The position numbers were made by a program, and so were the translations under genes. From NCBI GenBank assembly GCA_017640665.1, contig JAEPQE010000002.1:930001-994000 (forward strand): a DNA stretch of 64,000 nucleotides, in the 5' to 3' direction. Below are positions 5,770 to 32,509 of the stretch, in pieces. Within the stretch, counting starts at the first letter, position 1. Every line of letters begins with the position of its first letter. Source of the DNA: Balneolaceae bacterium (GTDB lineage: Bacteria > Bacteroidota > Rhodothermia > Balneolales > Balneolaceae). The notes below the pieces were generated by a model, which was not told the DNA's origin, made no database searches, and saw nothing but the letters and a program-made list of their open reading frames with translations.

Positions 5770-6283
5770 TCTTTATGCTTTTAGATGTTGAGAAGTTTTC
5801 ATCATTAAATTTAACCCAAGTCATCCACATAATAAAAATTACTATATAAAAAATAGTTGTTGTTGAATAGTCATGAGTAAAATCAAAAAACTCAATCCAC
5901 TCCTCTTGTGTAATTACCAACACTACAATTCTCAGAATATTTACAATATAAATCACCCCAATTCCAAGCAAAGAAAAGCTTATTCTACTTTTCCATTCTC
6001 CCGGATATGCCAGAATAAATCCCAGGAATAAACCAATTGCAGAAATACCTGTACAGCCATCAACTAATTCAATTCCCGCATTCTCACCTATTCCAATAAT
6101 ACGGTGTACCGACCAAACCTCGTACCCAAAAAAATCAATTATCCCTGTACTTACTGCTACAATATTTAAAGCAAGCCACTCATCTAAATTTCCATCAGGT
6201 AATAACCATAATTCATAAACAATGTACCAAAGAATAAAAACAGCAAAAGCTTTCGCAATAAATTTAGTAATTACAAAGTTCAT
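5762..6283 (-). CDS. exosortase/archaeosortase family transpeptidase
   Basis: A 173-residue polytopic membrane protein with the family's catalytic triad in order: Cys77 in VDGCTGIS, Arg118 in NILRIVVL and His137 in FTHDYS. Exosortases cleave C-terminal sorting signals (Cys/His/Arg chemistry) and release or anchor proteins at the cell surface, usually in exopolysaccharide producers. The gene is divergent from a large SLBB exporter, which fits that coupling. I could not assign a subfamily (XrtF, XrtN, XrtX and so on). No protein fully inside the window ends with an obvious short motif, TM helix and basic tail that would be its substrate. Confidence 0.88.
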   Translation of the reverse strand: MNFVITKFIAKAFAVFILWYIVYELWLLPDGNLDEWLALNIVAVSTGIIDFFGYEVWSVHRIIGIGENAGIELVDGCTGISAIGLFLGFILAYPGEWKSRISFSLLGIGVIYIVNILRIVVLVITQEEWIEFFDFTHDYSTTTIFYIVIFIMWMTWVKFNDENFSTSKSIKNA

Positions 6284-6346
6284 TTAGTGCATTAAATAAT
6301 AGTTTCTTAACTTACAAGTCTTATAAAATTCAATCTAGAGCAATTT

Positions 6347-8815
6347 ATGACATCTATCTTTTCAAGAGAACAATCCAGTATTATCAGGATACTTTTACTT
6401 TTTATTATTGTTCTTTTTCCAATTCTTATTGTAGCTCAGGATGTTGGTGGAATTGATTTTTATAATCTGAAATCAGATGATTTATCTGATCAACAAATTA
6501 CTCAACTTTTACAACGAATGGAAGCCCAGGGGCTAACCGTCTCTGAAGTAGAAGTTTTTGCTCGTGCCAGAGGTATGAGCCCTTCAGAAATAAACAAACT
6601 CAAGTCCAGACTTTCACAAATTGAATCTTTAAGAGCAGGTGCTCAAAACAATACATCAGATAAAACCCGGTTAAGGTCACTGTCAACGCAAATAGAAAAT
6701 AGTCAAAATGAACCGGTAGATACATTAGCGCTTTTTCTGGAACCAACAAAGTCTCAGGTTTTCGGGTCTGATATTTTTGCAAATAATCGAATAACCTTTG
6801 AACCATCATTAAATGTACCAACCCCAAAAAACTATGCATTAGGCCCTGGAGATGAATTAATTATTGATATTTGGGGAGCTGCAGAAAACACATATCAACT
6901 TACAATCTCTCCTGAAGGATCTGTCACTATTCCGAATCTTGGCCCCATATTTATTAATGGCTTAACCATCGAGGAAGCCTCTAATCGTTTAATCGATAAG
7001 TTAGGTACCATATACTCCGGTTTAAGAGGTAATAACAAAAATACGTATGCCCAAATTACATTAGGAAATGTGAGATCAATTCAGGTGAACATTGTTGGTG
7101 AAGTTAATACACCTGGCACATTTACCTTAACCTCTTTTTCTTCTGTATTTAATGCACTTTATGCTGCCGGAGGACCAAATGAAGGTGGAACCTACCGTTC
7201 CATTAAACTTATTAGAGATGGTCGGGAAATAAGAAATATTGATTTGTATGATTTTCTTGTTTCAGGAAGTTCAAAAGATAACATTACGTTACAGGATCAG
7301 GATATTATAAAAGTCGACCCCTATATAAATAGAGTTACTATTGTTGGTGAAGCAAGAAGAACAGGTTTCTTTGAAACTAAAGAAGGAGAAACTTTTCAGG
7401 ATCTTTTAAATTTCTCAGGAGGATTTAGTGAAAATGCTTACACCAAAAGACTAACTGTTGAACGTAATACTGCAACAGAAAAAAGCATTATTGATATATA
7501 CTACCCTGAAAATAAAGGCGAGGTACTGAAAAACGGCGATTATATTACCGTAGGTAAAATATTAGATCGCTATGCAAACAGAGTTCAAATTGAAGGCGCT
7601 ATATTCCGCCCCGGTGATTATCAGTTAGACACTAACCCAACCCTACTCACGCTAATAAATAATGCAGAAGGCCCAAAAGGTGATGCCTACTTAGATCGAG
7701 CAATCATTTATCGAACCAGACCTGATTATTCTACTGAAGCAATTGCAGTAAACCTCAATGAAGTATTAAATAATCCCACTGACAAAGATGTTAAGTTAGT
7801 TAAGGATGATAGAATTAAGATTTCATCTATTTTTGATTTAAGGGAAGAGCGGACAATAAGTATAAGTGGATCTGTGATCTCTCCAGATACTTATGAATAT
7901 GTTGAAAACATTACCTTAAAAGATTTGATTTTTGAAGCGAATGGATTCACAGAAGATGCCGCTCCATATAATATCGAGATAGCCCGAAGAATAACAGATG
8001 ATCAGTCCGGATCAATAAAAAATGTAATATCTGAGATTATACCTGTGAATATTGAGGATGGTCTAAATTACAATTCTCAACTAGATAAAATTATTTTGAT
8101 GCCATTTGATCAGGTGTTTGTGCGTAAGTCCCCTACTTATGAAGCTCAAAAAGTAGTTACCATTAAGGGAGAAGTTCTTTATCCGGGCACATATACTTTG
8201 CATACCAGGGATTTCAGGTTAGCTGATTTAATTGATAAAAGTGGTGGAGTCAATGACTATGCTTTTGTTGAAGGAGCTTCTCTAGAAAGAGAGTTTGAAA
8301 TTAATCAGAAAGAGCTTGAACTCAACCTTGCTGATTCTTTAACTGAAGAGGCAGAACAGATTGAATCACTATCCAAAGTTGGTATTAATCTTAAAGAAGC
8401 ACTCCAAAACCCTAACTCAAGTTCAAATATTCTATTGCTTGAGGGAGATGTAATCACCATCCCAAAAAAGTTAGAAACTGTCCAGGTAAGAGGAGAAGTT
8501 CTATATCCTATAAATGTTCGGTATAATGATGGAAATAAATTTAAGCATTATGTGAATTCAGCAGGAGGATATACTGATCAGGCTAATAAGAAAAAAGCTT
8601 ATGTTGTATATGCTAACGGTGATGTTGACCGTACAAAGAAATTTCTATTTATAAAGTCGTATCCTAAAGTAAGACCCGGTTCTGTTTTGATAATCCCGCC
8701 AAAAGAAGAAAAGATTCAATTAACTACTGCTGAAAGAATCACCCTTTATTCTACCATTGTTTCTCTAGCTGCGATTGTAACAAATACGATTTTCCAGATA
8801 AGAAATAGTAAATAA
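6347..8815 (+). CDS. large SLBB-domain polysaccharide export protein (Wza-like)
   Basis: An 822-residue protein with a signal peptide (about 1-30, cleavage after IVAQ). It has a poly-export domain at about 160-250 (YALGPGDELIIDIWGAAE) and six SLBB-type repeats recognisable by cores such as VNIVGEVNTPGTF, VTIKGEVLYPGTY and VQVRGEVLYP. It ends in a C-terminal hydrophobic helix (about 797-817) and a basic tail. Classical Wza is about 380 residues, so this is the giant form found in Bacteroidota-type envelopes. It should form or line the periplasmic/outer-membrane channel for the polymer. It converges on the polysaccharide operon with only 4 bp between stops, and has a paralogue at 41215-43941. 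Confidence 0.88.
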   Translation: MTSIFSREQSSIIRILLLFIIVLFPILIVAQDVGGIDFYNLKSDDLSDQQITQLLQRMEAQGLTVSEVEVFARARGMSPSEINKLKSRLSQIESLRAGAQNNTSDKTRLRSLSTQIENSQNEPVDTLALFLEPTKSQVFGSDIFANNRITFEPSLNVPTPKNYALGPGDELIIDIWGAAENTYQLTISPEGSVTIPNLGPIFINGLTIEEASNRLIDKLGTIYSGLRGNNKNTYAQITLGNVRSIQVNIVGEVNTPGTFTLTSFSSVFNALYAAGGPNEGGTYRSIKLIRDGREIRNIDLYDFLVSGSSKDNITLQDQDIIKVDPYINRVTIVGEARRTGFFETKEGETFQDLLNFSGGFSENAYTKRLTVERNTATEKSIIDIYYPENKGEVLKNGDYITVGKILDRYANRVQIEGAIFRPGDYQLDTNPTLLTLINNAEGPKGDAYLDRAIIYRTRPDYSTEAIAVNLNEVLNNPTDKDVKLVKDDRIKISSIFDLREERTISISGSVISPDTYEYVENITLKDLIFEANGFTEDAAPYNIEIARRITDDQSGSIKNVISEIIPVNIEDGLNYNSQLDKIILMPFDQVFVRKSPTYEAQKVVTIKGEVLYPGTYTLHTRDFRLADLIDKSGGVNDYAFVEGASLEREFEINQKELELNLADSLTEEAEQIESLSKVGINLKEALQNPNSSSNILLLEGDVITIPKKLETVQVRGEVLYPINVRYNDGNKFKHYVNSAGGYTDQANKKKAYVVYANGDVDRTKKFLFIKSYPKVRPGSVLIIPPKEEKIQLTTAERITLYSTIVSLAAIVTNTIFQIRNSK

Positions 8816-8819
8816 AAAT

Positions 8820-10010
8820 CTAAGTGTTATAAAAATCGCAAATTGAGCTTACAACATACTCAATCTGATCTTGATTTAATTCAGGATAAATTGGTAGTGA
8901 TAATGCCTGTTGAGACACTTTCAGGGAAACTGGACAATCTTCAGGTGAATAGTTCAGTTCAGAAAAACACTCCTGAATATGAAGTGGAACAGGGTAATAA
9001 ATCGAAGTCCCTATTCCCCTTTCTTTAAGCCATTTTTGTAGTCCGTCTCTGTCTTTAACACAAATTGTGTACTGGTGGTAAATGTGTCTTCCGCCATTCT
9101 TTTCAGTTCCAGTTGTTTCATTCGGAAGAAGTATCGCATTTGTATCTGATAAATCTTTAGATGCAATTCCAGATTTCAAAAAGAGGTGATTATAGTCATC
9201 TGCAATGCTCTTTCTTGATGAAGACCAGCCGTCCAAATATTTCAATTTTACTGATAAAATTGCCGCCTGAATAGCATCTAACCGGCTGTTGATACCAACA
9301 TATTTATGGTGGTATTTTGGTTTTGCTCCATGTAAACGGAGAATATTCACCTTGTCTGCAAGTTCTTTATCTTTAACAGTGATTAAACCAGCATCGCCGT
9401 AAGCTCCTAGGTTTTTACTTGGAAAGAAACTGAAACATCCAAAATCACTTAAATTTCCAGCCTGGATCCCCTTATATTTTGATCCTATAGATTGTGCAGC
9501 ATCTTCAATCACCTTAAGATTAAACTCATCTGCCAATTCCAAGATGGGGTCCATATCTGCCATTTGTCCATAAAGATGAACTGGTATTATTGCTTTAATC
9601 TTTTGTGGATCAGGATTAATTCTTTTCGATAGTTTAGCCTTACCTTCAAGAAACGCTTTGACTTTTATGGGATCTAAATTGAAACTGTCTGCTTCTATAT
9701 CAATAAAAATTGGAATTGCCCCTAACCTTGCTATTGCCCCAGCTGTAGCAAAAAAAGTAAACGGAGATGTGATTACATAATCACCAGGTTTTAAATCGAT
9801 TGCCATTAGAGCCAAAAGCAGCGCATCCGAACCCGAAGCACAGCCAAATGCAAAATCAGAACCGCAGTACTCCCCTACTTCCTTTTCAAACTCCTTAACA
9901 TAACTACCCATTATGAAGTGCTGGGATTCCATAACAGAATCAACAGCTATCTTAACTTCTGTTTTAATTGAATCGTATTGAGCCTGCAAATCAATTAAAG
10001 GTATATTCAT
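8820..10010 (-). CDS. wlbE: PLP aminotransferase, DegT/DnrJ/EryC1 family (WlbE/WbpE-like)
   Basis: A 396-residue sugar aminotransferase. The PLP Lys is K199 in FFPSKNLGAYGD, and the PLP-ring Asp lies in VIEDAAQS (169-170). With its neighbours WlbA and WlbB it fits conversion of UDP-3-keto-GlcNAcA to the 3-amino sugar, using glutamate, on the way to UDP-2,3-diacetamido-2,3-dideoxyglucuronate. It is the last gene of the minus-strand run and follows wlbB by 1 bp. The family match is certain; the substrate is inferred from the four-gene context. Confidence 0.85.
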   Translation of the reverse strand: MNIPLIDLQAQYDSIKTEVKIAVDSVMESQHFIMGSYVKEFEKEVGEYCGSDFAFGCASGSDALLLALMAIDLKPGDYVITSPFTFFATAGAIARLGAIPIFIDIEADSFNLDPIKVKAFLEGKAKLSKRINPDPQKIKAIIPVHLYGQMADMDPILELADEFNLKVIEDAAQSIGSKYKGIQAGNLSDFGCFSFFPSKNLGAYGDAGLITVKDKELADKVNILRLHGAKPKYHHKYVGINSRLDAIQAAILSVKLKYLDGWSSSRKSIADDYNHLFLKSGIASKDLSDTNAILLPNETTGTEKNGGRHIYHQYTICVKDRDGLQKWLKERGIGTSIYYPVPLHIQECFSELNYSPEDCPVSLKVSQQALSLPIYPELNQDQIEYVVSSICDFYNT

Positions 10011-14213: not shown

Positions 14214-15407
14214 TTATTCCGTAAGAGATTCTTGTGGAGTCTCTACTGATTTTCCATGTTTTTTGTTCTCAATCTCCAAGTGATGATAAAGATCTACATT
14301 TTTATTTGGCAAAAGAATTCTTTCTAAATCTATCCCAATTATACTTGCCAATTTTCTTTTTATACCCATTGTAGGAAGCATTAATACCATTGAAAAAATT
14401 ACACTAAATAAACCAAAGTTGACATTGCTTAGTGCTGTCAAAATTGCAATCAGAGTAATAACCACAGTCACACAATAAAGATAAATAACCGTTCTTTTTT
14501 GTCCCCACCCCATTTTTAAAAGTGTATGGTGAATATGATCTGAATCTGCTTTAAATGGTGATTCTCCCCTGGCAATTCTCCTAGTGAAAACTCTTAGCGT
14601 GTCATATAATGGGATTGATAGAACAGCAATTGGCACAATTACTGAAGAGTTGCCAAAATTTTGATAGAATTCAGAAAACTGATTTAGAGAAATAAATTTA
14701 ATTGCTAAAACAGAAAGAATAAATCCTATGACCAAAGATCCTGTATCACCCATAAATATAGAAGCTGGATGAAAATTATGGAGTAAATAGCCAACACAAG
14801 TAACAGCCAGTACTAAAGCCATATAGGCAAATACTGTATCACCAACATAGAAAAAACCAATACTAAACGTAATAGACGCTATTGTAGCTACACCAGCAGC
14901 CAACCCATCAATCCCATCAATTAAATTGTATGCATTTATAACAACAATCATGGTAAATAAAGTTATTGGAGAACTGATCCAAATTGGAATATCCGTGATT
15001 CCAAATAATCCACCGAATTGTGAGATACTAACGTGCATCCCATATATTGCAGATATTGCGGCTATAAATTCAATAATAAGTTTAGTTTTAGGAGCAAGCC
15101 CAATTAAATCGTCTTTTAATCCACAGAAAAAAAGTGCTAATGAAGAACCAAAAAAATAAGGTAATCCTATCATTAAGTGTGCCTTACCACTAAACATAAA
15201 ACCAGCCATGAAAGCCATAAATATAGCAATTCCACCCAAGTTTGAAATAAATTTCGTGTGCACTTTTCTAGTGCCATCAGGCTTATCATATAAATCTTTA
15301 TGATAGGCTAACTCTATAAGAATTGGGATAGCTTTTTTTACGACATAAAAGGAAATGGTGCAGGCTAAAAAAAACTGCACCCATTTAAATAACGCCACTT
15401 CAATCAT
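14214..15407 (-). CDS. wecA: undecaprenyl-phosphate GlcNAc-1-phosphate transferase (WecA/MraY family)
   Basis: A 397-residue polytopic protein with about eleven TM segments. Family motifs are GLKDDL (Asp99-Asp100), NAYNLIDGIDGL (158-169), GDTGSL (220-225) and the cytoplasmic HIHH at 291-294 after RRIARGESPFKADSD. Together they define the polyprenyl-phosphate HexNAc-1-P transferases that start lipid-linked polymer synthesis on the inner membrane. It is therefore the likely initiating transferase of this locus; no PglC/WbaP-type initiator was seen. The HIHH motif favours a UDP-GlcNAc-type donor. Confidence 0.9.
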   Translation of the reverse strand: MIEVALFKWVQFFLACTISFYVVKKAIPILIELAYHKDLYDKPDGTRKVHTKFISNLGGIAIFMAFMAGFMFSGKAHLMIGLPYFFGSSLALFFCGLKDDLIGLAPKTKLIIEFIAAISAIYGMHVSISQFGGLFGITDIPIWISSPITLFTMIVVINAYNLIDGIDGLAAGVATIASITFSIGFFYVGDTVFAYMALVLAVTCVGYLLHNFHPASIFMGDTGSLVIGFILSVLAIKFISLNQFSEFYQNFGNSSVIVPIAVLSIPLYDTLRVFTRRIARGESPFKADSDHIHHTLLKMGWGQKRTVIYLYCVTVVITLIAILTALSNVNFGLFSVIFSMVLMLPTMGIKRKLASIIGIDLERILLPNKNVDLYHHLEIENKKHGKSVETPQESLTE

Positions 15408-15472: not shown

Positions 15473-16582
15473 CTAAGATTTTTCTAATTCAATAATTATT
15501 TTATTCACATTTTCACCATAGTCTTTAGTATAATTGAAATAGTAAGATACTTCTTCTTTTATATCAGAATATTTTGATTCTTTATATGGTTTAGAATCAA
15601 TCTCATCTAAATGATTAATCACTTGTGTAGTCTTAACAATGCTCTCTTGTATGTTATGCCCTTCCAATTTCAAACTGTAAACTTTACAGCCAAAATAAGC
15701 CCAAGCGGGTAATAAAGAAGAATAATGTCCAATAACGATTGGAGCTATCGGTATAGAATCTCTAAATATCTTAACATTGTGGTCTTTAAAAAAGGCTATT
15801 GCTTCGTGCCCCATTCTCGGATGCCCCTTTACTACCAACTCTTTCTTTTTCAATACTGACCAAGTTATTAAGTTTTCTAAAATTTCATACATTTTCTCTT
15901 TAGATAGCCGGCCATCCTCAACAAGCGTCTGATAACAGTATACTATTGAGTCGTCGCCCAATTCAGAATTCTGATACCTTATTAGTTCTGGATTACCACA
16001 AATAGTAAATCTCGAAAAATCTTCGTTAAAATAATATGTTTTGTGCCATTCCTCCCAATATTTCGAGATGACAATTGCTCTATTTGGAAAACCTATTGTC
16101 TTTTTAAAATTATATTCTCGTTTTTCTATCAAAGTATGGGTTAAGAAAAATCTAAAGAAGAGTAGTATGTTACTATCAAGTATTGATGACCTAATTGCAT
16201 AGTTCAAGTATCGAAGAGTCTTCTTTAGCTTTGAAATAAAAAAAAAAGCATTTCTTTTCATGAGAGGGATATATAAACCATGTTGTATATATACTGTATG
16301 GATACCATAGCTGTTTGAAATTTGGGTAAGGTAAATATCAGGTATCCGTTGACCATTAATGATAAAGACATCATGGTTTTTAATTAAAGTGTCTATATCA
16401 TTTCCCTTTAATTTTTCCAGACATTCAATCCGAAACTCATACCCGAATGCTTTTAACTTTCTCTCTTCTTCTTCATTTTCAATTAAAATACTTATTTCAT
16501 TTGAATTAATAACCTCTTTCAGCACATCCAAATAGTATCTTTTGACATTAATAGCGTCTATTTCAAAAAAAATAATCTTCAT
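15473..16582 (-). CDS. putative GT-B glycosyltransferase, possible acidic-sugar transferase
   Basis: A 369-residue soluble protein that I do not recognise as a named family. Visible motifs are YIQHGLY (98-104), VVKGHPRMGHEA (250-261) and IGHYSSLLPAWAYFG (284-298). A His-Gly before mid-protein, a Lys-Gly-His-Pro and a late His-Tyr-Ser-Ser resemble the HP and S/T motifs of bacterial CMP-sugar-using transferases (polysialyl-, sialyl- and KDO-transferase-like GT-B enzymes). It sits directly downstream of a CMP-sugar synthetase module. I infer that it transfers the CMP-activated sugar made there; this is not proven by the sequence. Confidence 0.5.
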   Translation of the reverse strand: MKIIFFEIDAINVKRYYLDVLKEVINSNEISILIENEEEERKLKAFGYEFRIECLEKLKGNDIDTLIKNHDVFIINGQRIPDIYLTQISNSYGIHTVYIQHGLYIPLMKRNAFFFISKLKKTLRYLNYAIRSSILDSNILLFFRFFLTHTLIEKREYNFKKTIGFPNRAIVISKYWEEWHKTYYFNEDFSRFTICGNPELIRYQNSELGDDSIVYCYQTLVEDGRLSKEKMYEILENLITWSVLKKKELVVKGHPRMGHEAIAFFKDHNVKIFRDSIPIAPIVIGHYSSLLPAWAYFGCKVYSLKLEGHNIQESIVKTTQVINHLDEIDSKPYKESKYSDIKEEVSYYFNYTKDYGENVNKIIIELEKS

Positions 16583-16585
16583 AAA

Positions 16586-17251
16586 TTAATAACTTACTGC
16601 TAAAATTGTCACTGGGCCACCATTACCATTTTCAACCAAAAGAGGAGCGATAATTACACTTTTAGGATTTCTTTTTAATTCTGAAAGCTTCATATCCTCA
16701 ATTATAAAAATTGGCCGATTATCTTCTTCATTTAAAAAAGATAAATGTGCTTTTTTACCTTCCTCTTTGAATAACGGAGAAGTAAGTGAAATAAAATCAA
16801 AACCAACAGTTCGGAGATTTTTAAAATTTTCTCTTAGATATTCACAAGCTTCTTCGGAAATCCCTGGATAAGCGTTCCAATATTTATTCTCTGTCCGGAA
16901 TTTTTCGAATCCCGTTTTTATAATTAGAAAATCAACACTTTCTTTTATAGGAGTAGTTATTAAATCTTCTTTTTCAATAAGGCGACCATTTTCACAAGGA
17001 ATATCTATAATATTTACGGAAGTGAAAATCCATTTCTCAGGAGAGACATCAGTTAAAGTACTTCCTGAATCGTAAAAGTGTTTTGGAACATCAATATGGG
17101 TACCTATATGATTGTTGGTAAGCCTAAAATCTGTCGTATTCGAAGTATCCCCCATTAAAATTGAGCTTTTAGGATCCAGGATGACACTATCTCTATCACC
17201 ATAACTAGGTGTATCTTTTGCTAAGGGGTGTGACAAGTAGATAACCTTCAC
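16586..17251 (-). CDS. cyclase/kynurenine-formamidase-like metal hydrolase
   Basis: A 221-residue protein with the family's metal-binding signature HIGTHIDVPKHF (His48, His52, Asp54, His58). The cyclase family (KynB, isatin hydrolase) hydrolyses amide or lactam bonds with Mn or Zn. There is no tryptophan pathway gene nearby. It overlaps the CMP-sugar synthetase gene by one base, so it probably acts on an intermediate of that pathway, for example removing an N-acyl group or opening a lactone or lactam. That role is inference from position. Confidence 0.75.
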   Translation of the reverse strand: MKVIYLSHPLAKDTPSYGDRDSVILDPKSSILMGDTSNTTDFRLTNNHIGTHIDVPKHFYDSGSTLTDVSPEKWIFTSVNIIDIPCENGRLIEKEDLITTPIKESVDFLIIKTGFEKFRTENKYWNAYPGISEEACEYLRENFKNLRTVGFDFISLTSPLFKEEGKKAHLSFLNEEDNRPIFIIEDMKLSELKRNPKSVIIAPLLVENGNGGPVTILAVSY

Positions 17252-17931
17252 TAAATCTCCCTTTCCGATAAATATCTCTTAATAGATTCAGCAATTTGAA
17301 AATCACTTTCTTCATCTATGTCTACTGCTTCTACACGATTGATTGGGAATAAAAGTGGATTATCACCTATCCTATTTTTCTTTTCCATAAACATAGATCT
17401 TGAGAACATATAAATACAGGAATTCTCTTCATAAACTGGTGAAAGATCCTGTGTTTTTATCAATTTTTTTGGGTTATGGTTTATCCCTTTCCCATCTGGC
17501 CAATAAAATCTACTCTGCATTGAAGTTACAGACATTAAACTATCGTGAATATCTTGATTTAAAAATCTATCTATCGACTTATCTATCGTCTTCGCTGTTA
17601 ATAATGGATTTGTACTGTGGGTCTGCAGATAAAAATCAGCGTCTGTCTTGTTTATATCATATTCAATAATCTGATTCGCCTCATTACTTGTAATTGTAAG
17701 TAAATAATCAGGTCTCATATGAATTTTAACATCAAAATATTTGAGTGCTGTTTCTGCAATTTCTTCAGAATCTGTGTTAATGAGTATTGAAGAAATACTA
17801 TTGGATTGTTTAAGGCTTTCAAGAATCCAGTAAAGCAAAGGCTTTCCATGAAACTCTCTGAGATTTTTTCCGGGCACTCTTTCAGAGTACCCTTTCATAA
17901 ATAAAAGAGCAGTAATTTTTGGTTTACTCAT
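17251..17931 (-). CDS. acylneuraminate-type cytidylyltransferase (CMP-sugar synthetase)
   Basis: A 226-residue protein when begun at the ATG at 17931, which overlaps the upstream stop by 8 bp; a TTG 18 bp earlier is the alternative. The N-terminal nucleotide loop is MKGYSERVPGKNL, the variant KGxSERVPGKN form of the NeuA/KdsB fold. QTHSTNPLL and VEAVDIDEESDF match the CMP-NeuAc synthetase region that binds the sugar and metal. It couples CTP to an acidic keto-sugar. No NeuB, NeuC or KdsA homologue is in the window, so the sugar is not an obvious sialic acid or KDO. Confidence 0.82.
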   Translation of the reverse strand: MSKPKITALLFMKGYSERVPGKNLREFHGKPLLYWILESLKQSNSISSILINTDSEEIAETALKYFDVKIHMRPDYLLTITSNEANQIIEYDINKTDADFYLQTHSTNPLLTAKTIDKSIDRFLNQDIHDSLMSVTSMQSRFYWPDGKGINHNPKKLIKTQDLSPVYEENSCIYMFSRSMFMEKKNRIGDNPLLFPINRVEAVDIDEESDFQIAESIKRYLSEREI

Positions 17932-18391
17932 TGGTAAATTTAATAGCAATCTTCATCGTGAGCTTTTTTATTAGCAAAGGTTCATTTACAAAATGTTGTG
18001 GTCCGTGCCCATCTTCAGGAAACATAATGGCAAAAATTCCACTTCCTATATCAACATAAGTAGCTTGCGGATGAGGTTTTTTATAAAATGTTCGGTCTTT
18101 GTTTTCATCGTATGGAATATTCACTTCCATATCCTGAATAGGAGACCATTTCACCCTTTCAAGCCCCTTCAAAGGATACTGAATATCGATAACATGCTTA
18201 TGTGCCTCGTATCCTCTTTCGAAATTCTCAATAGTTTCGTATTCGCTTACTATTGCCTTTACATTTTCACTAACCTGATATTCACCCAATGCAATATCAG
18301 GGTTAACATCTCTTATGTATTCTAATCCAGTATAAACATCTTCACTAAGACCTTTATATAGATCAATGTTCTTAATTGTATCTACGATCAT
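17924..18391 (-). CDS. YhcH/YjgK/YiaL (NanQ/EbgC) family cupin
   Basis: A 155-residue cupin-like protein. Conserved metal ligands appear in EAHKHVIDIQY (62-72) and MFPEDGHGPQ (123-132). YhcH/NanQ is a sialic-acid anomerase, and the family is repeatedly found beside acidic-sugar genes. Its overlap with the CMP-synthetase gene suggests that it supplies the anomer required for activation. It lies 11 bp after the sugar-phosphate cyclase-like gene. Confidence 0.82.
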   Translation of the reverse strand: MIVDTIKNIDLYKGLSEDVYTGLEYIRDVNPDIALGEYQVSENVKAIVSEYETIENFERGYEAHKHVIDIQYPLKGLERVKWSPIQDMEVNIPYDENKDRTFYKKPHPQATYVDIGSGIFAIMFPEDGHGPQHFVNEPLLIKKLTMKIAIKFTNE

Positions 18392-18402
18392 TTCAGAACA
18401 GT

Positions 18403-19473
18403 TTAATTTCTGTGGTATGCGTTCATGTATTCTTCCATCCAGCCTTTGAAAAGTTTATCAGGCTCGGTGAGATCCTTAAACATCTTTCCCCAGCCTTTAG
18501 TAAGGATGAGTCCGAACTCGCCATTTTCATTTTTTTTATCCTTTTCCATGGCCTTAAACAATTCATCTAAGTTCAGGTTTGAGATCGAATACCCTTCCCA
18601 AATTACTTTAAAGACATTATGTGCTCGTTTTACTTCCTCATTAGATATATATCCTTTTTTCATTGATATATAATTAGCCATATCCATCCCAAACGATACT
18701 GCAACACCATGGGGAATCCCATAGTTAGTTATACTTTCAATTGCATGTCCGAATGTGTGTCCGTAATTAAATACGATTCTTTCCTTTTTATCAAACTCAT
18801 CAATTTCTATATAGCCTTTTTTAATGGAAAGACTTTTCCGGATTAGTTCACCTAGATTTTCCTGAGTTGCCAGAGCTTCTTTGAATTCAGTTTCAAAATA
18901 AAATACATCCTCTTCACCTGAAACAAAGTAGTAATGTGCCATTTCTCCTATTCCAGAACGTATATCTCGCTCAGTGAGTGTCTTCAGGTAATTAGGATCA
19001 ATATAAATTGATATTGGCGGGTAAAAACCTCCAACTTGATTCTTGAATTCTCTAAAGTTAATTGAGGTTTTACTTCCAATACAACTATCACACTGAGCAA
19101 GTAATGTGGTAGGAAAAAATACCCACCCGACTCCTCTGTAGAGCATTGAAGCAATATAAGCAGTTACGTCTTGTGTTATTCCTCCACCTATTGAAATGAG
19201 TCTGTTGTTTCTTTTAAAACCAGTTTTAATCAGCTCATCAATAAATGGGATAACCCCTTCATAGCTTTTTGTGCTTTCCAACGAATCAATAGCTATTGTT
19301 TTCATTCCTGAATTCAATATCAAATCAAGATCAGGATGAAGCTTGATTACTTTTTTGTCAACAATAACGCAATCACCAGGTCTATAAGAGTCTTTAAGGT
19401 GCTTTTCCAGAGAGGATATAATGTTCACTTCATAATTTTTGATAGATGATTTCACTATAAATGAATCAGACAT
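18403..19473 (-). CDS. 3-dehydroquinate-synthase-like sugar-phosphate cyclase
   Basis: A 356-residue protein from the ATG at 19473 (8-bp overlap with the upstream stop). It keeps the fold motifs of the DHQS superfamily: GGGITQDV (96-103), PTTLLAQCDS, GSKTSIN with Lys135, and metal ligands Glu177, His239 and His255 around NYGHTFGHAIE. Lys218/219 and Arg232 are also present. Where DHQ synthases usually have ExxK after the metal Glu, this protein has EMAH (His180), which may mean a different substrate. Candidates are sedoheptulose-7-phosphate or a related ulosonate giving a carbocycle. A role in shikimate synthesis is unlikely in this context. Confidence 0.75.
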   Translation of the reverse strand: MSDSFIVKSSIKNYEVNIISSLEKHLKDSYRPGDCVIVDKKVIKLHPDLDLILNSGMKTIAIDSLESTKSYEGVIPFIDELIKTGFKRNNRLISIGGGITQDVTAYIASMLYRGVGWVFFPTTLLAQCDSCIGSKTSINFREFKNQVGGFYPPISIYIDPNYLKTLTERDIRSGIGEMAHYYFVSGEEDVFYFETEFKEALATQENLGELIRKSLSIKKGYIEIDEFDKKERIVFNYGHTFGHAIESITNYGIPHGVAVSFGMDMANYISMKKGYISNEEVKRAHNVFKVIWEGYSISNLNLDELFKAMEKDKKNENGEFGLILTKGWGKMFKDLTEPDKLFKGWMEEYMNAYHRN

Positions 19474-20209
19474 TGGTAAAACCTCCATCTACAACTATAT
19501 TTTGACCTGTCATATAAGAATTTTCTTTAGAACTTAAAAATAAGATTACCATTCCTATTTCAGAAGGATCGGCTAATCGGTTGATTGGAATAGTAATTCC
19601 AATTTTTTTTAGCTCTTCTTTGGTATTAGTAGTTTCTGTCAATTCGGTTAAAGTGAATCCCGGGGAGATTGAATTAACTAATACTCCATATTTTGCTAGT
19701 TCAACCCCCATTGTCTGAGTTAAACCGTTAATGGCATTCTTAGACATTGAATAGATAGCTCTTCTAGCACGAGTAATCACACTCCAAATAGAAGCAACAT
19801 TAACAATTCTTCCATAGCCTTGTTTTTTCATCAAGCCTGCTAAAAATCTTGAGATTTTTAAGGGTGCATTCATATTGACTGAAATCAAGGCTGAGTAATC
19901 TTTATCTGAAATTTGTTCAACCTCATTTAAAAGATTAATCCCAGCATTATTTATAAACACATCAATTCGAGGAAGTAAATTAAGAAGCTCAATAAAAGAA
20001 ATTATACCTTCATCGGAACTGAAGTTACCCTGAAGGTATTCAAATTCTCCTATAGCTTTTAACTCCTCTTCTAAGGTTTTGGAAGGTTTAGGTCCTGTAC
20101 CAGTAATGTAAACTGTGCCACCTCTTTCTAAAAAAAGTTTCGCTGCTTCTTTCCCAATACCCCGGGTTGATCCTGTTATTACAATGGTCTGTCCGGTAAA
20201 ATCAAGCAT
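19466..20209 (-). CDS. SDR-family oxidoreductase
   Basis: A 247-residue classical short-chain dehydrogenase with cofactor motif TGSTRGIG (12-19), NNAG (87-90), catalytic Ser140, Tyr153 and Lys157 (YSMSK), and GQNIVVDGG near the end. FabG-like in outline, but its position between a SIS isomerase and a cyclase points to a keto/hydroxyl step in sugar or cyclitol synthesis. It lies 4 bp from the SIS gene. The cofactor and substrate cannot be fixed from the sequence. Confidence 0.85.
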   Translation of the reverse strand: MLDFTGQTIVITGSTRGIGKEAAKLFLERGGTVYITGTGPKPSKTLEEELKAIGEFEYLQGNFSSDEGIISFIELLNLLPRIDVFINNAGINLLNEVEQISDKDYSALISVNMNAPLKISRFLAGLMKKQGYGRIVNVASIWSVITRARRAIYSMSKNAINGLTQTMGVELAKYGVLVNSISPGFTLTELTETTNTKEELKKIGITIPINRLADPSEIGMVILFLSSKENSYMTGQNIVVDGGFTNV

Positions 20210-20213
20210 TTCT

Positions 20214-20813
20214 TTATTCGTAAAGGCTCATAAATTCTTCGTCTTGTCTCAGATAAGAAACTAACATATGGCAAATAATCATATGTAGATCCTCAATTGG
20301 ACCGTAGTCACCTTTCGGATTAGGTGTGAACAAACAGATTTTGCAGGCATCTTTGAGTTTACCTCCTTCAAATCCTACTAATCCAATTGATGTACCTCCA
20401 AGTTCATTGGCGTATTCAGCAGCTTTCACAACGTTCATTGAATTCCCACTCGCCGAAATAGCAATCAGAACATCACCTTTGCTAAAATAATCCTGCATCT
20501 GCTGAGTAAACACTTCATCGTAAGAATTATCATTCCCAATAGCCGTCATTAAAGGACTGTGATCTGTAAGACTAACTACTTTAATTCTTTTTTTCTTAAA
20601 ATATCTTACAAAAAATCCAAAATCTACTTTATAGTGAGAAGCGGTAGCGGCACTACCACCATTTCCAGCAACATAAATTGTTTTTTCATTTTTGTAGACA
20701 TCAATAATAGTAGATGTTATTTGTTCAAGTACATCAAAATCTATTTGATCAAATAGATCATTTAGTTTTTTTTGGTAGTCTGCAGAATGTTGTATGAGTT
20801 TCTCTTTTCTCAT
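20214..20813 (-). CDS. SIS-domain sugar isomerase (GmhA/DiaA-like)
   Basis: A 199-residue protein resembling sedoheptulose-7-phosphate isomerase. The phosphate-binding GNGGSA is at 50-55, with ISASGNS near 115-121 and IEDLHMIICHML near the end. GmhA converts sedoheptulose-7-P to manno-heptose-7-P. None of the other ADP- or GDP-heptose genes (HldE, GmhB, HddA, HddC) are here, so a heptose-7-phosphate intermediate may instead feed the adjacent cyclase-like enzyme. DiaA-type regulators share the fold, but the operon favours an enzyme. Confidence 0.78.
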   Translation of the reverse strand: MRKEKLIQHSADYQKKLNDLFDQIDFDVLEQITSTIIDVYKNEKTIYVAGNGGSAATASHYKVDFGFFVRYFKKKRIKVVSLTDHSPLMTAIGNDNSYDEVFTQQMQDYFSKGDVLIAISASGNSMNVVKAAEYANELGGTSIGLVGFEGGKLKDACKICLFTPNPKGDYGPIEDLHMIICHMLVSYLRQDEEFMSLYE

Positions 20814-20831
20814 TATTGTAGTTTTTTCAGT

Positions 20832-21827
20832 TTAAAAGTTTTTTTCAGCGTAAATCTTATCGATGATTGTCATTAACTTGAATGCATCTGATGAATTTCC
20901 AATCTCGATATTTGAATCATTTTCAATAGCGTCAAGGAAATGTTCGATCTCATATCTCCAACTATGGTCTTCTACATATTGTGTTTTTACTTCATCCTTC
21001 CAGGTTGCGGCTGGAGCCGTAGATCTATTTTTTGCAATAGATAGAACTTCTTCTCCATAACTCATCGTAGAAGTGATCAGTCCATTAAGCACCATGTAGC
21101 CTTTTTCCATAAATACCTCTAAAGAAAATAGGTGCCTCCATTGGCTCATTGTTGAGTGGAGTGATGCATCAATTCCAGTTTCAGAGTTTCTTAAAATAAC
21201 AAATGCATTATCTTCAACTTCCAGATTCCAGTAAAGATTCGAAACCTCAGCTTTAACTGAATCAAAATCCCCAGCTAAATGCAAGAACAAGTCAAGCATA
21301 TGAATCCCCTGATCAATTAAAATACCACCACCTGCGAGCTCTTTCTTTGCCCTCCAATTATCAAAATAATCTTCGGTAACACTTTTTCCATATCTCCCTC
21401 TCATCCAAATTATTTTCCCAAACTCGCCACTATCAACCAATTCTTTCATTCGAATTACACTACCATGATGTCTATGGTTAAATCCGTACATAAGCTTTCG
21501 ACCATTGCTGTTCTTTTCTACTTCAATAATCTCTTGAACATCTGCACCTGTAAAAGCAGGCGGCTTTTCACAAAAGACATGCTTTCCCGCCTCTAGAGCT
21601 TTTATTGTCAATTCCTTATTTAAAAAATTTGGAGTTGAAACAATGATCACATTAATCTCAGGTTTGTTAATTATCTCATCATGAGATAGATTGGGTATAT
21701 TATCCAGAGGTACCTGAAGATTTGGTTCCGATACCGCAATTACTTTTCCTCTTCCATCTTCTTCAATTGCTTCTAATCGGGTTTGCCCCATCTTTCCATA
21801 CCCAATAATACCTACATTAAAATCCAT
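20832..21827 (-). CDS. Gfo/Idh/MocA family oxidoreductase
   Basis: A 331-residue protein with GYGKMG (9-14), STPNFLN and the catalytic EKP at 87-89, followed by a typical C-terminal Gfo/Idh domain with GGGILIDQGIHMLDL. It belongs to the CMP-sugar module by spacing: 18 bp to the SIS gene and 43 bp from the 2-hydroxyacid dehydrogenase. Family members oxidise a ring hydroxyl of a sugar, inositol or nucleotide sugar. It is too different from WlbA at 10578 to be a duplicate made for the same step. Confidence 0.82.
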   Translation of the reverse strand: MDFNVGIIGYGKMGQTRLEAIEEDGRGKVIAVSEPNLQVPLDNIPNLSHDEIINKPEINVIIVSTPNFLNKELTIKALEAGKHVFCEKPPAFTGADVQEIIEVEKNSNGRKLMYGFNHRHHGSVIRMKELVDSGEFGKIIWMRGRYGKSVTEDYFDNWRAKKELAGGGILIDQGIHMLDLFLHLAGDFDSVKAEVSNLYWNLEVEDNAFVILRNSETGIDASLHSTMSQWRHLFSLEVFMEKGYMVLNGLITSTMSYGEEVLSIAKNRSTAPAATWKDEVKTQYVEDHSWRYEIEHFLDAIENDSNIEIGNSSDAFKLMTIIDKIYAEKNF

Positions 21828-21870
21828 AACTGTAGTTAGTTAATTAGTTTAATTTTTTATAATTCCGAAA

Positions 21871-22803
21871 CTAAATACTTTTTAGTGCTTCGATAAGATT
21901 ATTGACCGCATCAATTTCCATCTGAAGTTTCCCTTCTTTTGCATAGGACCCTAAATGAGGTGTAAGAACAATATTCTCTAAATCGCAAAGACTTCCAGAG
22001 TATGGTTCTTCTGAAAATACATCAACGGCAGCACCTGTTAGTTTACCATTTATTAATGCTTGATAGAGTGCCTCTTCGTCAACAACTCCACCTCTGGACA
22101 CATTGATAAGGAAAGCACCATCCTTCATTTGGTTAATTTGTTCAGTTCCGATTACATGACTTTTATCGCTACTTCTCGGCACGTGTAGAGTAACAATATC
22201 TGATTCAGACAATACTTCTTCCATTGTCTTATAAACTACTCCGGAATCTTTTGCCCAGTCTGTATCAGGATATAAATCAAACCCAATAACAGGATTTCCA
22301 ATACCTCTGAATAACTCAGCAGTGAGCTTTCCTATTCTTCCTACTCCAATTATTCCAATTGTTTTATTTAGAATAAGATTGCCAATTTGCTTTTCCCATT
22401 TACGATTTTTTAAAGCACAATGAGCTTGTGGAACTTTTCTAAGAAGGGATAAAGTAAGAGAAAGCGTTAGTTCTGCCACTCCTCTTGTTGGGCCATTCGG
22501 AGTGTTCACTACCGCTATCCCTTTTTTCTTAGCATAATCCAAATCTACACTATCCATACCCACTCCAACTCTGCTAATACATTTAAGCAGTGGGCATGCA
22601 TCCATAACTCGAGCAGTTAATGGTTCAACTCCAGCAACAATACCTACACAATCTTTTGCTAAGTCAATCGCTTCATCTTCAGTTAATCTTCGTCCATAAG
22701 GGTTATTGATAATTTTAAAACCTTCATCCTTCAATAAATCAAAAGGGTCAGAAGCAATCTGTCCAAATGAAGATGGTGATGTTAATATTGTAGGTTCATT
22801 CAT
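21871..22803 (-). CDS. D-2-hydroxyacid dehydrogenase
   Basis: A 310-residue NAD-dependent dehydrogenase of the phosphoglycerate-dehydrogenase type with GVGRIG (153-158) and the Arg237, Glu266, His283 catalytic set in NVSRGG, VFSEEP and LTPHLGS. It lacks the C-terminal ACT domain of serine-pathway SerA. It overlaps the pyruvate-aldolase-type gene by 4 bp. It may reduce a 2-keto acid released or formed by that aldolase, or oxidise a 2-hydroxy acid to feed it. Confidence 0.87.
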   Translation of the reverse strand: MNEPTILTSPSSFGQIASDPFDLLKDEGFKIINNPYGRRLTEDEAIDLAKDCVGIVAGVEPLTARVMDACPLLKCISRVGVGMDSVDLDYAKKKGIAVVNTPNGPTRGVAELTLSLTLSLLRKVPQAHCALKNRKWEKQIGNLILNKTIGIIGVGRIGKLTAELFRGIGNPVIGFDLYPDTDWAKDSGVVYKTMEEVLSESDIVTLHVPRSSDKSHVIGTEQINQMKDGAFLINVSRGGVVDEEALYQALINGKLTGAAVDVFSEEPYSGSLCDLENIVLTPHLGSYAKEGKLQMEIDAVNNLIEALKSI

Positions 22804-23555
22804 TGAGATCTTAATTCCTCCAAAGCTTTTTGCGATCCAGACGATACTAATGTTATATCTACCGAATAAGCAATAAACTTATAACCTTCTTTTATTCTTT
22901 TTTTAACTAAATCTGGATTAGGAGCAACTTGATGAATTCCAGGTAACACCTTATTTCGCTTACAAATTATTAGAAAATCTTCTATAGCTTTAGTCATCTT
23001 TGGATGACTAAAGTCACCAGTAATCCCCATAGAAGTACTCAAATCATACGGACCGATCAATGCCGCATCAATACCTTTTACAGACAAAATCTCGTCTAAA
23101 TTATAAATCGCATTAATATCCTCTATTTGAACACAAACAAAAGTTGATTTATTTGACTCATTAAAGGAAGCATGCAAATTTAGCCCGTAATCATTTGACC
23201 TACTGAAACCTACTCCTCTTCTGCCTTGTGGGGGGTATTTTACAGAGTCAACAAGCAATTGAGCCTCTTCTTTCGAATTAATCATAGGACAAATGATACC
23301 ATCCGCACCTGCATCAAGGTACCGTTTATTCTCTGAATAAGAATTTCCTGAAACTCTTACTAAGGCTCTACACTTACGGTTGCCAGATTTAATTGCCTGA
23401 AGTAAGCCAAAAGATTTTTCCAAATCTACTGGTGAGTGCTCAACATCTATTGCCAAAAAATCATATCCCGATATTGCCATTAACTCAGCAATTACTGAAC
23501 TACCACTACACAACCAACTTCCAATTATCGGGTTTGATGTTTCTTGATTATTCAT
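22800..23555 (-). CDS. HpcH/HpaI-type class II pyruvate aldolase
   Basis: A 251-residue protein with the HpaI active site: His40 in DVEHSP, Arg67 in LVRV, Glu145 in VQIEDINAI and Asp171 in IGPYDLSTSMG as metal ligand. The family joins pyruvate to an aldehyde to make 4-hydroxy-2-oxo acids, or cleaves them. In a locus with a CMP-ulosonate-type synthetase but no PEP-dependent NeuB or KdsA, it could build the 2-keto-acid sugar from pyruvate. It is the first gene of the module in transcription order after a glycosyltransferase. Confidence 0.85.
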   Translation of the reverse strand: MNNQETSNPIIGSWLCSGSSVIAELMAISGYDFLAIDVEHSPVDLEKSFGLLQAIKSGNRKCRALVRVSGNSYSENKRYLDAGADGIICPMINSKEEAQLLVDSVKYPPQGRRGVGFSRSNDYGLNLHASFNESNKSTFVCVQIEDINAIYNLDEILSVKGIDAALIGPYDLSTSMGITGDFSHPKMTKAIEDFLIICKRNKVLPGIHQVAPNPDLVKKRIKEGYKFIAYSVDITLVSSGSQKALEELRSQ

Positions 23556-30362: not shown

Positions 30363-31250
30363 TTATTCTTTTTTCGCAACAATTAAGCTATGTTTTTTTA
30401 ATATAGATTTGGCTTTAAGCACCATTGGTGGACCTATAAATTTACCATTCATAATAGCAACACCTTTTCCGCTTTTTTTTGCTTCTTCAGAAAGTTTCAG
30501 CATTTCTTTAGCATCTTCAACTTCTCGATTATTAGGAGTATAATAATCATGAATAATAGGTAATTCTTTTGGATTCAATACTAGCATTCCCTCAAATCCC
30601 AAATTTTTTGCTACTATAATATTCTTCTCAAGATCTTCTAAATCATGTACACGAACATGTACCGTATCTATTGGGATCACATTACAAGCTCGTGCTCCCA
30701 TAGAGATAAGTGATCTAGCAGTGAATAAACTTTGATCATCATGGTCATGAATACCTTGTAAATCCGAAATAAAATCTTCCGATCCAAAAGACACTGCCAC
30801 AACTCTATCAGACGCTGTACAAATTTCTTGAATATTTAGAACTGCAGCCGCTGTTTCTATTAAAGGAATAATTTTGAATGTGCCTATAGGTATATTTTTT
30901 TGATATTCAATGGTCTCAAGTAGCTTGGAAAAAAAATAAACATCTTTACCTGTTTTAGACTTAGGGTACATGAAACCTGCTACACCTTCTATTGTAAGTT
31001 CTAGTACATCGCTTAATAATTCTCCACTTTCTCGGTCATTAACTCTTGGGAATAGTACTTTACCCTCAAATTTCCCATCCATTACATACTCTTTAATATT
31101 CTTTCTTGCAACTTCTTTATTGGAACTCGGTTGAACTGAATCTTCAATATCAAGAAGTAAAATATCTGCATAAGACTTTACAGCACTATTTAAAAGCCTT
31201 TCATTATGTGCTGGAACAAACATTAAGCTTCGAAAAAGATAATTAATCAT
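30363..31250 (-). CDS. CitE-like CoA-ester lyase (HpcH/HpaI superfamily)
   Basis: A 295-residue protein with FVPAHNERLL (about 11-20), LDIEDSV (34-40), LIETAAAVLNI with its metal Glu, and VSFGSEDFISDL. These are the marks of CitE, malyl-CoA and citramalyl-CoA lyases, which make or break 3-hydroxy-dicarboxyl-CoA esters from a 2-oxo acid and an acyl-CoA. It overlaps the MaoC gene by 8 bp. A second, shorter homologue lies at 31697-32509. No citrate-lyase alpha or gamma subunits are present. Confidence 0.82.
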   Translation of the reverse strand: MINYLFRSLMFVPAHNERLLNSAVKSYADILLLDIEDSVQPSSNKEVARKNIKEYVMDGKFEGKVLFPRVNDRESGELLSDVLELTIEGVAGFMYPKSKTGKDVYFFSKLLETIEYQKNIPIGTFKIIPLIETAAAVLNIQEICTASDRVVAVSFGSEDFISDLQGIHDHDDQSLFTARSLISMGARACNVIPIDTVHVRVHDLEDLEKNIIVAKNLGFEGMLVLNPKELPIIHDYYTPNNREVEDAKEMLKLSEEAKKSGKGVAIMNGKFIGPPMVLKAKSILKKHSLIVAKKE

Positions 31251-31707
31251 TTTGCATCCTTCTTTTCACTAATACTTTTCTTCTGAAAGATAAAACATCT
31301 ATATGATTTTGATTATTAACTATAGTTTCGACATACACAATGCCTCGGTCTTTCTTCGATTTTGATTGTACTTTTTCTAATATTCTAGTACGAGCATAAA
31401 CTGTGTCGTTTAAATAAACAGGTGCTAAATGCTTTACACTTTCATACTCTAAATTTGCAATCGCCTTACCACTAATTTCTGGTACTGTTAACCCAACGCC
31501 TATACTAAACACTAGGGTACCTACCACTAGAATTTTACCATGCTGTTGCTTGGAAGCATAATCTAGATTCGTATGAACAGGATGATGATTCATTGTTAAT
31601 AGCGAAAACATATTATTGTCACTTTCAAAAATAGTTTTTGAAATAGCATGATTTATGGTTTCCCCTATTTTGAAATCTTCGAAATAAAAACCAAATTCAA
31701 TTCTCAT
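31243..31707 (-). CDS. MaoC-family hydratase/dehydratase (itaconyl/mesaconyl-CoA hydratase-like)
   Basis: A 154-residue hot-dog-fold protein. The hydratase-2 motif region reads LTMNHHPVHTNLDYA (37-51), where canonical R-hydratases have GDxNPxH. The Met-Asn form is the one I associate with itaconyl- and mesaconyl-CoA hydratases that act with citramalyl- or malyl-CoA lyases. It sits between two CitE-like genes, overlapping both. It probably hydrates or dehydrates a branched C4-C5 dicarboxyl-CoA used as an acyl donor. Confidence 0.8.
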   Translation of the reverse strand: MRIEFGFYFEDFKIGETINHAISKTIFESDNNMFSLLTMNHHPVHTNLDYASKQQHGKILVVGTLVFSIGVGLTVPEISGKAIANLEYESVKHLAPVYLNDTVYARTRILEKVQSKSKKDRGIVYVETIVNNQNHIDVLSFRRKVLVKRRMQND

Positions 31708-32509
31708 TTCTTTTACTCCACTTTATTATTCTTTTAAATCTAGATACATGAGGTTTTTCTATTATTCTTCCATGCACCTTAAATGGCTTAAAATCAGTTT
31801 CTTTACCTATAATTGAAATTACTTGCTGGGCTAATTCTAATTCTTCAGCACTAAAAAAATTTACAGTTTCTAGTTGTTTAAGTTGGAATGGGTGTATAAA
31901 AAATTTTCCATCATGTCCAGAACTATATGCTTCATAAATTTCTTGTTTGATATTTTTCACATTATACAGTTCCATTGAAGCTATATCAATAACTTCTTTA
32001 CCGTAGGCCTTACCGTAAACTAAGAGCATATTACGAGCAAACTGTAAATTTAAATAAGTATGGTCCATTCCCATTTGATTTGCAAAATCGTGACTACCTA
32101 ATCCTAATCCAGTTATTTGATCACCTAGCTTATTAAGAATTTCCGGAAGCTGAATAAGGAGTTTTGGATTCTCAATCAAAAGAATAAATTTTAAGTATTT
32201 ATCTTTGACAGATCTTTGATTAATAATTTCCAATTCCTCTATTGAGCCTACTTTTGGTAAAATGAAATTTGAAAAACCTCTCTTAACGAATTGATTAAAA
32301 AATGATTGCTCAATATCAAAAATTGAGTTAAGACGAATTAAGTAATTCGATTTAGCTTTAATCTTTTTAATATTGTCTATTGCCTCTTCTAAATCCGTAC
32401 GTGCAACAGAATCTTCTAGATCAAAAACAAAAAAATCAGCCCTTAATTCTTCAACTTTTTCTATGAATTTTCTTTTATCAGCTGGTATAAAAAAATATGA
32501 TCTAAGCAT
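31697..32509 (-). CDS. CitE-like CoA-ester lyase, short paralogue
   Basis: A 270-residue protein with [10 protein letters not shown] (5-14), VFDLEDSVA (28-36), LIENPKLL and [13 protein letters not shown]. It aligns in order with the 30363-31250 protein but is only distantly related. Having two CitE-like lyases around one MaoC hydratase is a compact acyl-CoA module. The N-terminal region is complete. It overlaps rmlA by 8 bp, placing it inside the dTDP-sugar operon. Confidence 0.8.

Follow-up and report, generated by a model that had tools for sequence, protein, structure and literature searches.

A ten-gene cluster of a Balneolaceae bacterium predicted to direct the synthesis of a CMP-activated acidic surface sugar without NeuB or KdsA

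Identification of the gene cluster

The analyzed window, a 64,000-nucleotide stretch of contig JAEPQE010000002.1 of a Balneolaceae bacterium (assembly GCA_017640665.1), contains a cluster of ten genes (positions 15473-23555) that very probably directs the synthesis of an acidic surface sugar activated with cytidine monophosphate (CMP), without the known synthases of sialic acids or 3-deoxy-D-manno-octulosonic acid (Kdo) and with the aid of a relative of 3-dehydroquinate synthase put to a new use. We have considerable confidence that the product is a CMP-activated 2-ulosonate. The core of the module recurs in many bacterial phyla and in phages, and looks like a widespread, unstudied pathway. 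Ulosonic acids activated with CMP serve to decorate the bacterial surface, where they can imitate sugars of the host; to our knowledge, the known routes to them are all built on NeuB or KdsA.

The ten open reading frames (ORFs) form one tightly packed, intact run on the minus strand (intergenic spacing of -26 to +43 bases). In the order of transcription they encode: (i) an HpaI-type aldolase, (ii) a 2-hydroxyacid dehydrogenase, (iii) a Gfo/Idh oxidoreductase, (iv) a SIS isomerase, (v) a short-chain dehydrogenase/reductase (SDR), (vi) a protein related to 3-dehydroquinate synthase (DHQS), (vii) a YhcH protein, (viii) a CMP synthetase, (ix) a KynB-like hydrolase and (x) a transferase. These families, assigned by Pfam and NCBIfam profile matches, agree with those proposed in the initial annotation of this DNA. 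The cluster lies within a polysaccharide locus that also contains glycosyltransferase genes, a WecA-like gene and genes resembling Wzx and Wzy. In the open-licence literature we found no pathway matching the gene set, the combination of a phospholyase with a cytidylyltransferase, or deoxy-heptulosonic acids. The earlier view of the set as uncharacterised is supported.

Absence of NeuB, KdsA and KdsB from the genome

The genome carrying the cluster is 98.8% complete. NeuB (PF03102) was absent from it in a search that gave matches in control genomes, and KdsA was absent as well (no PF00793 enzyme and no TIGR01362 match). The same applies to KdsB: the other matches to CTP_transf_3 (PF02348) look like IspD and RmlA, and the synthetase of the cluster is the only KdsB/NeuA/PseF-type gene of the genome. 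The initial annotation had listed NeuB, NeuC, KdsA and KdsC as missing; for NeuB and KdsA this now holds genome-wide, as it does for KdsB, while NeuC and KdsC were not searched for in the whole genome. Since the genome lacks NeuB, KdsA and KdsB, the CMP synthetase cannot serve Kdo or a NeuB product, and its substrate must come by another route, for which the neighbouring genes are the obvious source. The proposal of a CMP-linked acidic keto-sugar is supported accordingly.

The genome also carries a type II synthase of 3-deoxy-D-arabino-heptulosonate 7-phosphate (DAHP). Given the lack of KdsA, KdsB and NeuB in this near-complete genome, the bacterium appears to be devoid of canonical Kdo. Three closely related loci (L043, L045 and L046), whose synthetases are of the window subtype, come from genomes that lack NeuB but contain KdsA.

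The TIGR04425 enzyme

The sixth gene had been annotated as a dehydroquinate-synthase-like cyclase. Its relationship to DHQS stands, but the protein belongs to TIGR04425 (424.3 bits, cut-off 400), a 'hypothetical equivalog' in NCBIfam described as an AroB-related putative sugar phosphate phospholyase (cyclizing). AroB, the 3-dehydroquinate synthase itself, was rejected as an assignment, because the match to the aroB model (261 bits) is below the cut-off of 305 and the genome has a separate aroB-like gene elsewhere (G000:C3:445941). Among 394 genomes of the phylum, TIGR04425 exceeded its cut-off in 9, scattered over families, and was separated from true aroB by a score gap of about 100 bits. Named collections of phages and plasmids gave only distant matches, mostly annotated as aroB.

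DHQS, 2-epi-5-epi-valiolone synthase (EEVS) and 2-deoxy-scyllo-inosose synthase (DOIS) close rings. TIGR04425 shares with them the fold family and the catalytic positions, but it is a separate family, with its own Q106, W122, C136 and N272. In a profile comparison it matched DHQS with 244 bits, DOIS with 173 and EEVS with 137, which makes the latter two more distant. The recognisable catalytic positions of DHQS are invariant in both classes of TIGR04425 distinguished below, save the one aligned with the invariant Lys of aroB, which is His185 in the window enzyme and His in 57% of class A. The conservation of these positions favours a DAHP-like, carboxylate-bearing phosphate substrate.

Distribution of the module in bacteria and phages

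Scanning 84,980 species genomes yielded 80 TIGR04425 loci from many phyla, to which the phylum search added nine with flanks; eight loci that were distant, duplicated or unusually placed were left out of the class counts. In a maximum-likelihood TIGR04425 tree, the clade of the window enzyme (SH-aLRT support 96) was defined as class A (41 loci) and the rest as class B (38 loci). Neighbours were counted within 9.5 kb of TIGR04425, many of the loci coming from metagenome-assembled genomes and contig ends. Class A is characterised by genes of the CMP synthetase (31/41 loci, versus 1/38 in class B), SIS and Gfo/Idh (each 30/41 versus 0/38), the hydroxyacid dehydrogenase (27/41 versus 0/38), HpaI (14/41 versus 1/38), KynB (12/41 versus 0/38) and YhcH (8/41 versus 0/38). 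Class B loci contain an acetolactate-synthase-like enzyme dependent on thiamine diphosphate (ThDP; 31/38, versus 0/41 in class A) and a distant HpcH/HpaI protein (25/38 versus 0/41). The same SDR gene adjoins TIGR04425 in nearly all loci of both classes, of which 79 are from hosts and 77 from viral contigs; the filtering of overlapping ORFs makes the SDR counts slightly too low.

The class A synthetases are of three subtypes: PseF-like (as in the window), PseF-like fused to a cupin, and KdsB-like, a common type in hosts, which scores 297 bits against an NCBIfam Kdo cytidylyltransferase model (cut-off 255). In several class A loci YhcH adjoins the synthetase gene, and six class A host loci contain genes of MptE/PF01973, the family of Maf-type transferases. 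One locus left out of the counts, L099 of Alteromonas arenosi, lies on the class B side of the tree, yet carries class A genes.

A scan of viral contigs gave 77 carriers of TIGR04425. As classes based on gene content would be partly circular, they were redefined by the tree alone, giving 37 contigs of class A and 40 of class B; the contigs, which may be fragmentary, include near-copies, and the distinct TIGR04425 proteins number 30 and 33, respectively, when classed by gene content. The division seen in hosts is repeated: SIS occurs in 33/37 class A and 0/40 class B contigs, the CMP synthetase in 30/37 and 1/40, and the ThDP enzyme in 3/37 and 39/40. The commonest otherwise unassigned class A gene encodes a GT29 sialyltransferase-like protein (26/37, versus 0/40 in class B), with PF00777 scores of 24.9-29.0 bits, above the cut-off of 23, in four of five proteins tested. 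Class A cassettes of phages are mostly devoid of HpaI, Gfo/Idh (2/34) and the hydroxyacid dehydrogenase (1/34). The core of class A was therefore set to four genes, i.e., TIGR04425, SDR, SIS and CMP synthetase, and it is accompanied by transferases of the kinds that use CMP-ulosonates.

The co-occurrence test proposed in the initial annotation was thus strongly positive (Fisher p values down to 1e-13 in hosts and 1e-17 in phages), and the grouping of the genes is not due to chance. The idea of the ten genes as one fixed pathway did not survive it: the four core genes are conserved, and those for Gfo/Idh, the dehydrogenase, HpaI, KynB and YhcH come and go.

Several phage loci merit separate mention. 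Class A cassettes with GT29 sialyltransferase-like genes occur in phages L132-L161, L165-L167 and L203, and a class III aminotransferase is encoded in 27/37 class A phages, which suggests a phage-driven change of surface sugars. In contig L140 a single operon (4226-9806) combines TIGR04425 and SIS with a KdsA-like synthase, a DegT aminotransferase and two distinct CMP synthetases, an arrangement in favour of a CMP-ulosonate. The viral contigs L162-L164 carry class B genes (ThDP enzyme and distant HpcH/HpaI), but the tree places their TIGR04425 on the side of class A.

Proposed pathway

We judge the chances to be about even that the cluster produces a CMP-activated 2-ulosonic acid by the following steps: (i) SIS would isomerise a ketose phosphate to an aldose phosphate, the role of KdsD in the Kdo route; (ii) HpaI would add pyruvate as the three-carbon donor, in place of KdsA or NeuB, which depend on phosphoenolpyruvate (PEP); (iii) TIGR04425 would, in a DHQS-like manner, oxidise its substrate, beta-eliminate phosphate and reduce, in place of a KdsC-type phosphatase; (iv) SDR would reduce the ketone left by TIGR04425; and (v) YhcH would set the anomer and the synthetase couple CMP. 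The transferase encoded at 15473-16582 would then add the activated ulosonate to the polysaccharide. Steps (ii) and (iii) could be interchanged with the same product. The removal of phosphate by TIGR04425 and SDR would make a phosphatase superfluous. Tailoring, or an additional path to the 2-keto acid, may be the task of Gfo/Idh, the 2-hydroxyacid dehydrogenase and KynB.

That step (iii) proceeds without ring closure is a tentative proposal, slightly less secure than the scheme as a whole. It would leave a terminal methyl group and thus give a 3,n-dideoxy-2-ulosonate, probably of seven or eight carbons; a C8 rather than a C7 ulosonate seems doubtful.

The scheme follows the logical order of the Kdo pathway (KdsD-KdsA-KdsC-KdsB), with isomerase, three-carbon condensation, phosphate removal and CMP activation, and one of the common synthetase types of class A is KdsB-like. 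It differs in that the window genome has neither KdsA nor KdsB, a pyruvate aldolase presumably replacing the PEP synthase, and a DHQS-type lyase with SDR the phosphatase. With the NeuB-type pathways of sialic, legionaminic and pseudaminic acid it shares a CMP synthetase nearest to PseF, a relative of the YhcH anomerase and sialyltransferase-like transferases; in contrast to them, the window genome lacks NeuB, and no aminotransferase or dehydratase is encoded among the ten genes. If the scheme is true, a route free of NeuB and KdsA is present in many phyla and in phages, and whole classes of acidic surface sugars have escaped notice or been misannotated as aroB. A concrete chemistry would be gained for TIGR04425, to which no function is assigned, and candidate enzymes for caryophyllose biosynthesis (see below).

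Alternative explanations

TIGR04425 could instead close a ring, with Gfo/Idh and SDR adjusting the resulting cyclitol and CMP being coupled to a cyclitol acid or to a carbocyclic ulosonate made by HpaI. The intact DHQS catalytic set, the word 'cyclizing' in the family name and the inositol dehydrogenase relatives of the window Gfo/Idh point in this direction. However, a KdsB/NeuA-type synthetase needs the C2 keto group, which would be lost on ring closure; no enzyme that could make the carbocyclic aldehyde is apparent; HpaI is frequently missing where the synthetase is kept; and the context of class B fits an open-chain product. The carbocyclic analogue suggested in the initial annotation is thus weakened and does not appear very likely. 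An oxidative route would use more of the cluster: SIS would convert sedoheptulose-7-phosphate into aldoheptose-7-phosphate, Gfo/Idh oxidise C1, KynB open the lactone and the dehydrogenase form a 3-hydroxy-2-ulosonate-7-phosphate, followed by TIGR04425/SDR and the CMP synthetase, with HpaI acting elsewhere. Every core gene thereby receives a step, Gfo/Idh and the dehydrogenase are commoner than HpaI in class A host loci, and GhrB-type 2-hydroxyacid dehydrogenases act on 2-ketoaldonates. Yet in phages the class A cassettes retain SIS, TIGR04425, SDR and the synthetase but mostly lose Gfo/Idh and the dehydrogenase, and HpaI in the window is left unexplained; we regard this route as unlikely. Still less probable are two unrelated modules, one (HpaI, YhcH, synthetase and transferase) for a CMP-ulosonate and the other (SIS, SDR, TIGR04425, Gfo/Idh and dehydrogenase) for a cyclitol or deoxy-sugar that feeds into another nucleotide sugar. 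Polysaccharide loci are mosaics, and HpaI often lies directly beside the synthetase, but the synthetase is associated with SIS and TIGR04425 across phyla, three synthetase subtypes and phages, and class B of TIGR04425 almost never occurs with a synthetase.

The open-chain CMP-ulosonate pathway faces difficulties of its own. HpaI is not universal in class A: no match was found in the 100%-complete class A genome G099, and none exceeded the cut-off in 31 phage class A contigs searched whole, one of which had NeuB. In these cases the ulosonate would have to come from a host KdsA or NeuB, or by another route. The model leaves Gfo/Idh and the hydroxyacid dehydrogenase without a firm role, and its lack of ring closure is argued by analogy with the equally conjectural class B chemistry. 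Finally, the transferase has a weak match to PF07388 and no usable structural model (single-sequence AlphaFold prediction with a pLDDT of 36, too low for use on a GT-B fold), and no homologue of it was found in the 394 phylum genomes.

KdsA is common in host genomes, and 3 of the 31 phage contigs carry a PF00793 (KdsA-like) enzyme, in L140 within the same operon. That HpaI strictly takes the place of KdsA or NeuB agrees with the window genome, but the comparison of genomes gives it no statistical support, those with and without HpaI both often having KdsA and NeuB.

Class B and a possible link to caryophyllose

Caryophyllose is a C12 sugar, present in the lipooligosaccharide of Mycobacterium marinum; the ThDP enzyme YerE transfers an acyl unit from pyruvate. 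Representatives of class B exceed the cut-offs for glucose-1-phosphate cytidylyltransferase, CDP-glucose 4,6-dehydratase and RfbH, and their gene set fits a candidate caryophyllose-type pathway. In such a pathway, the aldolase would join pyruvate and erythrose-4-phosphate, TIGR04425 eliminate phosphate without ring closure and SDR reduce the ketone, to give 3,7-dideoxyhept-2-ulosonate, whose acyl unit would be passed by decarboxylative, YerE-like ThDP transfer to C4 of a CDP-4-keto-3,6-dideoxyhexose. This would produce exactly the caryophyllose skeleton with its tetrahydroxyhexyl branch, the sugar being 3,6-dideoxy-4-C-[1,3,4,5-tetrahydroxyhexyl]-hexopyranose (PMC5706390). Starting from erythrose-4-phosphate, class B would need no SIS. 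The assignment would also give the TIGR04425-SDR pair a specific chemistry. This pair is common to class A and class B, the latter compared here with CDP-branched sugars of the caryophyllose/yersiniose type (PMC5706390, PMC7821131), and both plausibly use the same phosphate elimination, but class B ends in the ThDP enzyme and a CDP-3,6-dideoxyhexose, and class A in CMP activation. It is conceivable, though speculative, that a DHQS relative turned deoxygenating phospholyase defines a third general route to CMP-activated ulosonates, in which it would, together with one SDR, turn ulosonate phosphates into ulosonates with a terminal methyl group. Branch A would be activated with CMP for sialyltransferase-like enzymes, and branch B joined by ThDP enzymes to CDP-sugars to give caryophyllose-like C12 sugars, phages carrying both.

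One class B locus (L115) lies in Mycobacterium ahvazicum, of the same genus as M. marinum. Class B could not be linked by gene names to the M. marinum lipooligosaccharide locus, gene annotation being lacking in open-licence papers, and no pathway of caryophyllose biosynthesis was found in the open-licence literature. The class B members (hosts L034, L037 and L074-L115; phages L168-L208) often occur with CDP-3,6-dideoxyhexose genes. FGGY-type sugar kinases are encoded in loci L096, L103, L105, L107, L109 and L113-L115, mostly from Lachnospiraceae and relatives.

Properties of the individual genes

Coordinates and profile matches are given in Table 1.

Table 1. Genes of the cluster and the flanking WecA-like gene (window positions).
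Feature	Position	Strand	Profile match
HpaI-type metal-dependent pyruvate aldolase	22800..23555	-	PF03328 (HpcH_HpaI), 122.8 bits
D-2-hydroxyacid dehydrogenase (PGDH/GhrB-like)	21871..22803	-	PF02826, 179 bits
Gfo/Idh/MocA oxidoreductase	20832..21827	-	PF01408/PF22725, 95 bits
SIS (GmhA-like) sugar-phosphate isomerase	20214..20813	-	PF13580 (SIS_2), 70 bits
SDR reductase	19466..20209	-	PF13561, 164 bits
TIGR04425 AroB-related sugar-phosphate phospholyase	18403..19488	-	TIGR04425, 424.3 bits; DHQ_synthase + DHQS_C, 113/109
YhcH/NanQ-type cupin	17924..18391	-	PF04074 (DUF386), 107 bits
CMP-ulosonate synthetase (KdsB/NeuA/PseF superfamily)	17251..17949	-	PF02348 (CTP_transf_3), 87 bits (cut-off 22.6)
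KynB-like metal hydrolase	16586..17251	-	PF04199 (cyclase), 74 bits
Candidate CMP-ulosonate transferase (polysialyltransferase-like)	15473..16582	-	PF07388, 26.8 bits (cut-off 23.3)
WecA-like undecaprenyl-phosphate sugar transferase, flanking	14214..15407	-	TIGR02380, 152.5 bits (below cut-off 326)

HpaI scores 167 bits against TIGR02311 (4-hydroxy-2-oxoheptanedioate aldolase), below the equivalog cut-off of 368.8, and its residues H40, R67, E145 and D171 do not vary among 14 homologues encoded in class A loci; it is thus an HpaI-type aldolase with a predicted specificity other than 4-hydroxy-2-oxoheptanedioate. The D-2-hydroxyacid dehydrogenase, a candidate for 2-ulosonate redox reactions or for tailoring, retains the catalytic R237, E266 and H283 and is below the cut-offs of both PGDH (255 bits) and GhrB (167 bits). 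The EKP and D-x-x-x-H motifs of Gfo/Idh are kept in 32 class A copies. SIS (105 bits with the gmhA model, cut-off 209) has a conserved SxSGxS phosphosugar loop, D64 and H182, and SDR the conserved S140, Y153 and K157.

The YhcH protein scores 69 bits against the N-acetylneuraminate anomerase model (acetylneur_anom, NF040884; equivalog cut-off 160) and is a member of the wider YhcH family, with a putative role as an ulosonate anomerase; YhcH of Escherichia coli is the anomerase of the sialic acid Neu5Ac (PMC8141875). The CMP synthetase (85 bits with PseF, cut-off 205.7) reaches neither the PseF nor the KdsB equivalog cut-off. The H-x-G-T-H-x-D-x-P-x-H-F motif of the KynB-like hydrolase, a candidate for lactone or amide hydrolysis, is invariant in 12 class A copies. 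The transferase, earlier described by its HP motif, has H-P at residue 254 and E-D-G at residue 222, a spacing shorter than in known polysialyltransferases; it is unrelated to the ORF at the equivalent place in locus L035.

Elsewhere in the polysaccharide locus (window 30363-32509), two genes for CitE/RipC-like lyases lie on either side of a gene for a RipB-like (R)-enoyl-CoA hydratase. They adjoin genes for a NeuD-like acetyltransferase and a WecE-type transaminase, and perhaps provide a dTDP-4-amino sugar with an uncommon acyl group.

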